Shown here in pieces: positions 14,247 through 20,212 of a stretch of DNA of 49,032 nt. The position numbers and the translations under genes were made by a program. Position 1 is the first letter of the stretch, and each line of letters opens with the position of its first letter. Under the pieces are notes generated by a model. It saw only the letters and a list, made by a program, of their open reading frames with translations. It was not told the DNA's origin and made no database searches. Origin of the DNA: Candidatus Desantisbacteria bacterium CG1_02_49_89 (GTDB taxonomy: Bacteria; Desantisbacteria; UBA1551); assembly GCA_001871075.1 (NCBI GenBank), contig MNUP01000047.1:1-49032 (forward strand), given 5' to 3'.

Positions 14247-15516
14247 TCAACGTGTTTTGCTTGCATATTTGATCCTGTGCGTAACCGCAGCGTTCTGCAA
14301 CCGCGCATGCGGGGAAATCAGTTCGAAAGACATAGAATATAAAATTTACCTTTATCCCTCTGATGAAGCGCAGCCGCCGAAGCGTGCCCGCATACGCCGC
14401 GTTGCTTCAGTGCCGCCTTCGGTAAAAACGGTTGACTACAGTGTGTATACCGGTCTTGGCAGCATATATACCGATACTTTTCCGATAAGAGGGCTTCACG
14501 TGACTTCGTGGGCTGCCAGTTCTCTCGTTTCCTTTAACAGGCTTGTCGGGCTGGTAAACAGGACGGAGCTGAACGCGCTTGTTCTGGACCTTAAAGAGGC
14601 GGAGGGAAGGATCGCGTATGACAGCAGGCTTGATATCGCAAAAGAGCTGGGAACGCTGGAACCGATCGTTTCAAACATCGACGGGCTCATAACGATAATG
14701 AGGGAAAACAGGATCTTCCCCATAGCGCGCATCTGCGTTTTCAAGGATACGCTTCTTGCGCACAAAAAACCGGAGTGGGCGGTAAAAAACAAGAGCGGAA
14801 ACATCTGGCAGGATAAAAAGGGCCAGTCCTGGCTTGACCAGTATAACAGGGAAGTCTGGGATTATATAGTTATGATCGCGGAAGAAGCGGCTCAGAGGGG
14901 TTTCAGGGAGATACAGTTTGATTACGTAAGGTTCCCCAGCGACGGACAAATATCCGACTGCGTATTTCCCGCAAAGGCGAATTTCGGAGAAACCATTTCT
15001 CCGGCGCGCGTTATTCGAAGATTCCTGGAATATGCAAAAAATCGCCTGAAGCCTTACGGCGTGGCTATTTCGGCAGACCTGTTCGGGCTTACGTGTTCTT
15101 CCCTCGATGACCTGAACATAGGCCAGGTGATCGAAGAAGTGGCGAAGGAAGTGAATTACGTCTGCCCCATGACCTATCCCTCGCACTACTACCGCGGGAT
15201 GTATAACCTCCAGGTGCCGGAGGCAGAACCGTATAAGACTGTTTTCACAAGCATGAAAGACGTAAGGGTTAAACTCGGGGATACCAACCCGTGCGGCATA
15301 AGGCCGTGGCTGCAGGATTTTTCGCTGAAAGTGAAATACAACGCGTTCGAGGTGCAGGAGCAGATAAGGGCGGTCTATGAGAACGGCATAAGCGAATGGC
15401 TGCTCTGGAACCCAAGGTGCGTATACACGGAGGAGGTTTTAAGGCCTGAATCAGAGAGAAAGGCTGTAGCAAAGAAGATCCCGAATGGCGAAACGCTTAC
15501 GAAGCGGATCGAATAA
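14236..15516 (+). CDS. Putative glycoside hydrolase (DUF4015-like), secreted
   Basis: N-terminal signal sequence; GLHVTSWAAS...LVLDLKEAEGRIAYDS...FREIQFDYVRFPSDG. Confidence 0.7.
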   Translation: MRSNQRVLLAYLILCVTAAFCNRACGEISSKDIEYKIYLYPSDEAQPPKRARIRRVASVPPSVKTVDYSVYTGLGSIYTDTFPIRGLHVTSWAASSLVSFNRLVGLVNRTELNALVLDLKEAEGRIAYDSRLDIAKELGTLEPIVSNIDGLITIMRENRIFPIARICVFKDTLLAHKKPEWAVKNKSGNIWQDKKGQSWLDQYNREVWDYIVMIAEEAAQRGFREIQFDYVRFPSDGQISDCVFPAKANFGETISPARVIRRFLEYAKNRLKPYGVAISADLFGLTCSSLDDLNIGQVIEEVAKEVNYVCPMTYPSHYYRGMYNLQVPEAEPYKTVFTSMKDVRVKLGDTNPCGIRPWLQDFSLKVKYNAFEVQEQIRAVYENGISEWLLWNPRCVYTEEVLRPESERKAVAKKIPNGETLTKRIE

Positions 15517-15773
15517 TGTTTTACACCTACGTGCTAAGAAGCCGGAAAAATCAGAAATTATATTACGGTTATACAAATAATCTGGAGAAAAGGATTGTTG
15601 AGCATAATTCGGGAAAGGATGATTTTACACGTCATAACGGACCCTGGGATCTTGTATATTTTGAGGAATTTACTTTAAAAACAGAAGCATTAAAACAAGA
15701 AAGATTCTTTAAGAGCGGCAAAGGAAGAGAATACGTAAGAGGAAAATTAAATAATTTTCAAATCGGGGAATAG
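15516..15773 (+). CDS. Small GIY-YIG nuclease domain protein
   Basis: MFYTYVLRSRKNQKLYYGYTNNLEKRIVEHNSG; short single-domain form. Confidence 0.88.
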   Translation: MFYTYVLRSRKNQKLYYGYTNNLEKRIVEHNSGKDDFTRHNGPWDLVYFEEFTLKTEALKQERFFKSGKGREYVRGKLNNFQIGE

Positions 15774-15795
15774 CCCGCCCAGCAAGATTGGCGGG
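15774..15795. repeat. Hairpin word CCCGCCCAGCAAGATTGGCGGG
   Basis: 21/22 identity to 36269..36290 inside uppP. Confidence 0.8.
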
Positions 15796-15833
15796 TAAAC
15801 TCCGCCTGGGTCAAAGACATCACTTATGTCTTT

Positions 15834-15886
15834 GACGGGTGGAAGAGCGGAGCGACATGCAATCATTCAGGCAGAGCACACAGGAA
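15834..15886. repeat. tRNA-locus shared segment, copy P
   Basis: GACGGGTGGAAGAGCGGAGCGACATGCAATCATTCAGGCAGAGCACACAGGAA; aligns with 19496..19548. Confidence 0.75.
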
Positions 15887-15939
15887 GCGCGCGCGGTTAC
15901 AGTAATTAGGTATAAAAGTATTAGAGCGAAAATTCAAAT

Positions 15940-16013
15940 CGGGGTGTAGCGCAGTCTGGTAGCGCGCGCGGTTCGGGACCGTGAGGCCCCCGGTTCAAAT
16001 CCGGGCACCCCGA
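15940..16013 (+). tRNA. tRNA-Pro (anticodon CGG)
   Basis: Cloverleaf: CGGGGTG/CACCCCG acceptor, loop TTCGGGA, CCCGG-TTCAAAT-CCGGG T-arm; CCA not encoded. Confidence 0.93.
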
Positions 16014-16136
16014 TAGATTTTCGCAAAGCGAAAATCTGGAGCAATCGAACAATAGAAAATAGAGCAATAGATTAAGGAAAAAGTGAGATTGCGGTCTATT
16101 CTCTATTGTTCCATTTTCAGAAGAGCAAGCTATAAC
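16014..16136. repeat. Post-tRNA module, copy A
   Basis: AGATTTTCGCAAAGCGAAAATCT hairpin, then GAGCAATCGAACAATAGAAAATAGA...GATTGCGGTCTATTCTCTATTGTTCCATTTTC; homologous to 20094..20212. Confidence 0.75.
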
Positions 16137-19454: not shown

Positions 19455-19472
19455 GGAGAGATGGCCGAGCGG
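19455..19472 (+). pseudogene. Truncated tRNA-Ser 5' fragment
   Basis: GGAGAGATGGCCGAGCGG is identical to the first 18 nt of the intact tRNA-Ser at 19660. Confidence 0.8.
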
Positions 19473-19495
19473 GTCCCGATAACTGACGTTATCGG

Positions 19496-19548
19496 GACGG
19501 GTGGAAGAGTGGAACGACAGGCGTTCATTTATACAGAGCACCCAGGAA
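19496..19548. repeat. tRNA-locus shared segment, copy S
   Basis: GACGGGTGGAAGAGTGGAACGACAGGCGTTCATTTATACAGAGCACCCAGGAA; aligns with 15834..15886. Confidence 0.75.
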
Positions 19549-19661: not shown

Positions 19662-19747
19662 AGAGATGGCCGAGCGGCTTAAGGCGTGCGCTTGGAGAGC
19701 GTATAACCTGAAAGGGTTCGTGGGTTCGAATCCCACTCTCTCCGCCA
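19660..19747 (+). tRNA. tRNA-Ser (anticodon GGA)
   Basis: GGAGAGA/TCTCTCC acceptor, loop TTGGAGA, long variable arm, GTGGG-TTCGAAT-CCCAC T-arm, encoded CCA. Confidence 0.93.
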
Positions 19748-19820
19748 TACTACGCTCTACCTGATTATGCACAGGAAGTGTACCGAGCTTCGAATGGCAG
19801 GTTTTTAAAAAGGTAAAAAA

Positions 19821-20075
19821 ATGTATTATGTATATATTTTAAAAGATCAAGACAACAAAACATATATTGGTTCAACCAATAACATAGAAAGAAGACTCAG
19901 GGAACACGGGGAAGGTTGTTGTTATTCGACAAGATATTTTAAGAAAGCAGTTCTAGAAGCATATATTGCTGTGAAGGATGAGTCAACAGCAAGAAAGTTG
20001 GAAAAGTATTTAAAGGTAGGTTCAGGCAAAGCATTTCTTAAAAAGAGAATTTTAACTGACGAAGCCTCGGCGTAG
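19821..20075 (+). CDS. Small GIY-YIG nuclease domain protein
   Basis: MYYVYILKDQDNKTYIGSTNNIERRLREHGEG...ARKLEKYLKVGSGKAFLKKRI. Confidence 0.9.
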   Translation: MYYVYILKDQDNKTYIGSTNNIERRLREHGEGCCYSTRYFKKAVLEAYIAVKDESTARKLEKYLKVGSGKAFLKKRILTDEASA

Positions 20076-20079
20076 TCAG

Positions 20080-20094
20080 TCCCACTCTCTCCGC
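20080..20094. repeat. Duplicated tRNA-Ser 3' end
   Basis: TCCCACTCTCTCCGC is identical to 19731..19745 in tRNA-Ser. Confidence 0.85.
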
Positions 20095-20212
20095 AGTTTT
20101 TCGCTACAGCGAAAAACTAGAGCAATTGAGCAATGGAAAATAGAAAATGGATAAAGACAAAGCGATATTGCGGTCTATTTTCTATTGATCCATTTTCGGA
20201 AATTTTGCTATA
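20094..20212. repeat. Post-tRNA module, copy B
   Basis: AGTTTTTCGCTACAGCGAAAAACTAGAGCAATTGAGCAATGGAAAATAGA...GATATTGCGGTCTATTTTCTATTGATCCATTTTC; aligns with 16014..16136. Confidence 0.75.

Follow-up and report, generated by a model that had tools for sequence, protein, structure and literature searches.

Why should the gene of a small GIY-YIG nuclease lie between a complete tRNA-Ser gene and a second copy of the end of that same tRNA? The question is raised by the window analysed here, the whole stretch of 49,032 nucleotides of contig MNUP01000047.1 from Candidatus Desantisbacteria bacterium CG1_02_49_89 (assembly GCA_001871075.1). An earlier note, made from sequence alone, had claimed that a 15-mer of the tRNA recurs just past the GIY-YIG stop codon and that the interval of about 350 bp holds only the GIY-YIG gene, and both claims held. 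The 15-mer TCCCACTCTCTCCGC at the 3' end of the intact tRNA-Ser(GGA) occurs in the window only at 19731-19745 and 20080-20094, the next-best match having 3 mismatches; the second copy lies 5 nt past the stop codon, the start-to-start distance is 349 bp and the GIY-YIG gene is the sole ORF between the two repeats. Before the tRNA stand genes which we take to be yjbQ and apt, and after the GIY-YIG ORF one which we take to be dnaX (the names were read from the translations). The features of the locus are as follows.

19455 to 19472, plus strand: tRNA-Ser positions 1-18 (5' end as far as the D-loop) in an 18-bp copy, from the tRNA-copy search
19473 to 19548, plus strand: structured repeat of ~76 nt, inserted where the 5' tRNA-Ser copy reaches the D-loop, with the palindrome GTCCCGATAAC..GTTATCGGGAC and then GGGTGGAAGAG..GAGCACCCAGGAA
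19660 to 19747, plus strand: intact tRNA-Ser(GGA) with an encoded CCA at its end (ARAGORN; Rfam RF00005)
19731 to 19745, plus strand: 15-bp T-arm/acceptor 3' segment within the intact tRNA-Ser (exact 15-mer match)
19821 to 20075, plus strand: gene of an 84-aa single-domain GIY-YIG nuclease (ORF, PF01541, fold model)
20080 to 20094, plus strand: 15-bp copy, read as the displaced original tRNA-Ser 3' end, beginning in the T-loop after TTCGAA (exact match; native hairpin directly 3')
20095 to 20118, plus strand: hairpin AGTTTTTCGCTACAGCGAAAAACT, of the kind found directly 3' of 31 of the 42 tRNAs in the genome (tRNA-flank comparison)

Such hairpins lie within a few bases 3' of those 31 tRNAs and are mostly of the type TTTTTCGC..GCGAAAAA; no such hairpin trails the intact tRNA-Ser, and one comes directly after the 15-bp copy (20095-20118). 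Because the native hairpin trails the copy and not the intact tRNA, we infer that the copy is the old tRNA-Ser 3' end, still at its native position, and that the intact 3' end arrived with the insert. Since the truncated copy still stands in its native 3' context, the insert would have split the old tRNA-Ser in the T-loop and supplied a new 3' end. The 15-bp match is not overwhelming by itself: when the downstream 700 bp were dinucleotide-shuffled 400 times, the longest tRNA-Ser match was 11 nt, against the 15 observed, and a cruder test, in which tRNAs were paired with far flanks taken from other loci, gave p = 0.017 for a single 15-bp copy. The case rests on the hairpin context, on the orthologous locus of a related genome and on the survey described below. 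In this genome (L127-L146), the tRNA-trailing hairpins are followed by repeats of the AGAGCAAT type.

The earlier note had missed the 18-bp copy of the tRNA 5' end, a second GIY-YIG gene of the window beside tRNA-Pro, and three more tRNA-linked GIY-YIG genes of the genome. The tRNA-Pro locus consists of the following.

15516 to 15773, plus strand: second GIY-YIG gene, encoding 85 aa, with the stop codon inside a decayed tRNA-Pro copy
15763 to 15898, plus strand: decayed copy of the tRNA-Pro 5' part with the palindrome CCCGCCCAGCAAGATTGGCGGG and the ~76-nt repeat in the D-loop (15810-15885)
15939 to 16014, plus strand: intact tRNA-Pro(CGG) (ARAGORN)

The genome as a whole has 8 GIY-YIG ORFs, of which 5 have a tRNA (Met, Pro, Cys, Ser(GGA) and Ser(UGA)) not more than about 400 bp away, and tRNA-Met and tRNA-Cys show a mirror form, in which a 5' tRNA copy is followed by the GIY-YIG gene and then by the intact tRNA. 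Partial tRNA copies are present without a GIY-YIG gene as well, for example of Phe, Tyr, Pro(UGG) and Ser(GCU). The structured repeat of ~76 nt, with the palindrome GACATCACTTATGTC followed by GGGTGGAAGAG..GAGCACCCAGGAA and a few paired changes, is found at both places in the window and at L131, L132 and L129, and it occupies the D-loop of the decayed copies of Ser, Pro, Phe, Tyr and Pro(UGG). It has no Rfam match, and the Rfam scan of the region gave only the two tRNAs above the gathering score. A group I intron carrying the GIY-YIG ORF was rejected: no Rfam intron match was obtained around the ORF, and the tRNA is complete without splicing.

If the gene was inserted, sites without it should exist, and the earlier note had proposed looking for an empty tRNA-Ser site in relatives. 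The orthologous locus yjbQ-apt-tRNA-Ser(GGA)-dnaX of G001, a genome of the same order, contains neither the GIY-YIG gene nor tRNA copies. Between its tRNA-Ser and dnaX (L362, 3849-4350) there is a PIN-domain-like gene with a small ORF, resembling a toxin-antitoxin pair. A second pair of occupied and empty alleles comes from a single genus, where the mirror form is present at tRNA-Pro(CGG) in G114 and absent in G249, the tRNAs being identical. In G114 the order is native upstream flank, tRNA positions 1-19, palindromes, GIY-YIG gene, short spacer, complete tRNA and native downstream flank; in G249 flank, tRNA-Pro and flank are uninterrupted, and the two differ by a ~380 bp insertion with a 19-bp tRNA duplication. 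These two are the only loci without the gene that were found for comparison, and loss of the gene by recombination between the repeats would look the same as an uninserted site. No syntenic empty locus was found in the families of G203 and G124, only an occupied one, 90% identical.

The generality of the arrangement was assessed by a PF01541 profile search over 290 diverse bacterial genomes, after a 40-genome pilot, from which the small-ORF loci were taken; 23 extra loci from named genomes were added to the survey set. A tRNA lies within 300 bp of 66 of the 168 small GIY-YIG ORFs and of none of the 22 large ones, the chance expectation being about 1.7%. The small ORFs are not all independent, as a group of Flavobacterium tRNA-Met loci are orthologues. 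The adjoining tRNAs belong to 17 isotypes, and the GIY-YIG gene is on the tRNA strand in 65 of the 66 cases. The tRNA is upstream in 38 cases (type A: intact tRNA, GIY-YIG gene, 3' tRNA remnant) and downstream in 28 (type B: 5' tRNA remnant, GIY-YIG gene, intact tRNA). To detect copies, we aligned the flank lying past the GIY-YIG gene with the tRNA of that locus, taking 3,994 pairs of unlike isotype as the null and their 99% level as the threshold. Partial copies above it are found on the far side at 36 of 63 loci and on the near side at 8 (23 and 6 of 46 when the extra loci are left out), and at none of 69 tRNAs in genomes with only UvrC. The remnant typically spans the D-loop or T-loop to the tRNA 3' end in type A, and position 1 to the T-loop or D-loop in type B, where the GIY-YIG stop codon is often the D-loop TAG (positions 21-23) of the intact tRNA.

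These data bear on two alternative explanations. One would argue that a tandem tRNA duplication simply decayed beside an unrelated gene, as tRNA loci do recombine and our genome is rich in partial copies. This explanation is all but excluded, being contradicted by the enrichment, the orientation bias, the controls and the clustering of the proteins. The other is that the gene is passive cargo, left together with an att-like repeat at a tRNA attachment site after the decay of larger integrase-borne elements. In its favour, integrases classically use tRNA 3' ends, and the 15-bp repeat looks like attL/attR. Against it, many unrelated loci and taxa keep only the GIY-YIG gene of one protein cluster, the G114/G249 insertion is compact, strand agreement is nearly complete, and the 5'-side arrangement makes up 28 of the 66 cases; tyrosine-integrase elements rarely give such an arrangement. 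We regard the cargo explanation as very unlikely.

The remaining claims of the earlier note can now be weighed. That small GIY-YIG genes adjoin tRNAs elsewhere held in the survey, and the flanking tRNA-end duplications, which it had suggested to survey, are present. That a minimal element inserted in the tRNA gene and restored the tRNA, with a GIY-YIG nuclease in place of an integrase, is supported by the hairpin, by G001, by the G114/G249 pair and by the enrichment. Insertion at the tRNA 3' end held only in part, given the mirror form. The likeness to an attL/attR duplication held as far as the repeat is real, and nothing shows site-specific recombination of the attL/attR type. The note would have been refuted by a lack of enrichment beside tRNAs together with absence of the repeat, and this was not borne out, as the genes are enriched there with flanking tRNA-end copies. 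Its statement that a mobility mechanism is not established stands: the mechanism is still inferred.

The adjacency to tRNAs follows the protein tree. The tree was built from 160 small GIY-YIG domains; it is a quick one of few columns and its deep branches cannot be trusted. Presence of an adjacent tRNA changes 14 times on it against a shuffled mean of 50.6, and tRNA isotype 38 times against 49.9, and none of 500 shuffles reached the observed value in either case. The best split places tRNA-adjacent genes at 58 of 70 on one side and 7 of 90 on the other (p 1.7e-23, which is optimistic, the split having been picked for the strongest association), so that 12 of the 70 members of the tRNA-linked cluster have no tRNA inside 300 bp; without the extra loci the numbers are 40 of 52 and 7 of 85, with 0 of 22 for the large proteins. 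Two sister pairs join different genomes at the same isotype and side: Cys in our genome and G236 (60% identity, support 84) and Pro in G114 and G236 (51% identity, support 94). Alongside this isotype signal and these cross-taxon pairs, no direct event of horizontal transfer into a cognate site was seen.

The window protein belongs to the GIY-YIG superfamily (PF01541, E 5.4e-14, residues 1-66) and keeps the catalytic-domain residues Y5, Y15, G17, R25, H29 and E61; Y5, Y15, R25, H29 and E61 are invariant. Its AF2 model, made from a shallow alignment, has a mean pLDDT of 78 and matches the fold of UPF0213, Slx1, I-TevI and UvrC GIY-YIG domains, with just one match below E 0.001; the PDB sequence search gave only UPF0213 proteins as credible relatives. 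The UPF0213 and other small GIY-YIG proteins (PDB 1zg2, 1ywl) share the single-domain fold and the length, whereas the tRNA-linked proteins form their own cluster of the tree and few other small GIY-YIG genes have a tRNA nearby. Against viral contigs there were 8 weak matches, and PADLOC and PHROGs gave weak partial matches only, those in PHROGs to homing endonucleases. In relatives the gene is under purifying selection: dN is 0.044 and dS 0.565 between G203 and G304 (dN/dS about 0.08), and in Flavobacterium pairs dN/dS is mostly 0.05-0.2. Therefore, the protein is kept for its function.

That function could also be sought in RNA. According to this explanation, the nuclease cleaves its cognate tRNA or the precursor in a toxin-like or defence-like manner, the remnant is a decoy or regulator, and adjacency reflects co-regulation. 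The same-strand linkage, the inheritance of isotype and remnants nearly identical to the tRNA except for a remodelled arm speak for it. However, the remnants lack one whole tRNA end, the fold matches are to Slx1, I-TevI and UvrC, and the compact insertion with its empty site fits a mobile element. Characterised GIY-YIG enzymes are DNA nucleases. Thus we hold the RNA explanation to be unlikely.

A further regularity is found in the remnants, which often differ from the tRNA in one arm or loop only. A new perfect palindrome (stem of at least 6) is present in 31 of 37 remnants against 14.5% of shuffled ones, mostly TCCGCC..GGCGGA or TCCCGA..TCGGGA; the 15-bp remnant of the window has none. Palindromes of the TCCGCC, TCCCGA or CCCGCC kind lie within 400 bp of 30 of 65 tRNA-linked cluster genes (46%), 6 of 88 other small genes (7%) and 0 of 21 large ones, our own genome being left out of this count. 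It could be, then, that the GIY-YIG enzyme handles hairpins and moves short palindromes in a REP/RAYT-like manner, tRNA genes being hit as hairpin-rich places. Both counts favour this, as do the palindrome-bearing tRNA copies of our genome without a GIY-YIG gene and the Slx1-like fold. However, there is no tyrosine transposase of the IS200/IS605 type, the element encoding only the GIY-YIG protein, and the palindromes are not dispersed in most hosts: our genome has 56 copies and most element hosts few, G106 having the TCCCGAT palindrome once, inside the remnant, and G114 none of the ATCCGCC type. We hold this explanation to be unlikely; dispersed palindromes as the source of those in the remnants are likewise unsupported in most hosts, where few copies exist. 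Two genomes, G208 (49 copies) and G272 (21 copies), have many TCCCGAT..ATCGGGA palindromes and few GIY-YIG genes.

What is shown, then, is insertion in or beside tRNA genes with a complete tRNA preserved, a displaced remnant, one protein cluster and purifying selection. The likely explanation of the interval is a minimal, integrase-free, freestanding element of the homing type that splits and restores tRNA genes; that the DNA is cleaved in the D- or T-loop, and that the element actively homes with tRNA sequences as homology arms, is inferred. In this proposal the nuclease would cut or nick its tRNA gene, where that gene is unoccupied, in the D- or T-loop, with an occupied locus as the template for repair and the tRNA sequences flanking the GIY-YIG gene as the homology arms. 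Repair would copy the gene and rebuild one complete tRNA, so that the host would be unharmed, while the displaced piece would remain as the remnant. The short palindrome, common in the remnant's anticodon arm or loops, would probably keep it from serving as a tRNA or being targeted; that the palindrome blocks use as a tRNA or re-cutting is possible and no more than a guess. Homing with tRNA homology arms would account for both mirror forms, the strand bias, the inheritance of isotype and the absence of any other gene.

Several points stand against the homing reading. No cleavage, transposition or homing has been observed, and a protein of ~85 aa without a DNA-binding domain would be an unusual site-specific endonuclease. 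Plain homing leaves the palindromes unexplained. Our genome has partial tRNA copies without a GIY-YIG gene, 27 of the 63 tRNA-adjacent cases have no copy above the threshold, and some cluster members have no nearby tRNA.

Membership among homing endonuclease genes is unproven, and the likeness in working to known systems is by analogy, with cleavage inferred. SegB, a freestanding GIY-YIG homing endonuclease of phages T4/T6, cuts inside tRNA genes at the motif RAWTSGAAC and promotes recombination between tRNA-linked repeats (PMC13096335); by our own reading, the complement of that motif, GTTCSAWTY, is a T-loop. In both systems a GIY-YIG nuclease gene adjoins tRNA genes, but SegB is a phage protein and the relevant sections of PMC13096335 do not describe a restored tRNA with a displaced remnant, whereas the present gene is chromosomal, encodes ~85 aa and has a tRNA fragment at its opposite flank. 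Fungal mitochondrial mORFs (Allomyces atp6 type; Glomus atp6, atp9, cox2 and nad3) combine an endonuclease gene, in one case of a GIY-YIG enzyme, with a replacement for the displaced end of the host gene, the native end being left as a remnant (PMC3630166). Contrastingly, they reside in mitochondrial protein genes and not in bacterial tRNA genes, and the relevant sections of that paper describe replacement of the 3' (C-terminal) end only and report no palindrome-bearing remnants. Integrase-based tRNA elements also insert at a tRNA, restore it and leave a repeat, like the 15-bp direct repeat of the tRNA end here; the present element has no integrase, carries one short gene and occurs in both 5' and 3' forms.

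The same arrangement at many tRNAs of distant bacteria points to a widespread and apparently undescribed minimal mobile element. Our literature search, largely without subscription papers and preprints, found no GIY-YIG/tRNA element in bacteria, and a prior description is not excluded. A bolder reading, which we would neither favour nor dismiss, is a bacteria-wide class of minimal elements (about 0.35-0.4 kb), each with one GIY-YIG gene of the dedicated cluster and pieces of tRNA, that would home by isotype at the D- or T-loop with the tRNA as homology arms, restore a whole tRNA at one flank and reshape the displaced piece by means of a stereotyped palindrome. Bacterial genomes commonly contain small GIY-YIG genes, most of them with a domain-only annotation; if the homing explanation is true, a large subset of these genes would be selfish elements resident in tRNA genes, which they disturb and rebuild, and would rank among the smallest autonomous mobile elements. 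The tRNA genes would then be homing targets outside phages, and partial tRNA copies adjoining intact tRNAs would be explained.

Two loci show repeated units. At tRNA-Arg of G203 and G304 (L195/L250/L251), units of GIY-YIG gene, leader and tRNA stand in tandem with the second gene truncated. Inside each genome this truncated unit and the first have changed together, and while the units are homogenised within a genome, the hairpin-bearing tRNA copy is conserved between the two; the joint change is a sign of repeated conversion. At L218 (G215 C24), four copies of the tRNA-Glu 5' end lie ~106 bp apart upstream of the intact tRNA and the GIY-YIG gene, and the palindrome TCCCGATGAAATCGGGA is repeated at the same spacing.
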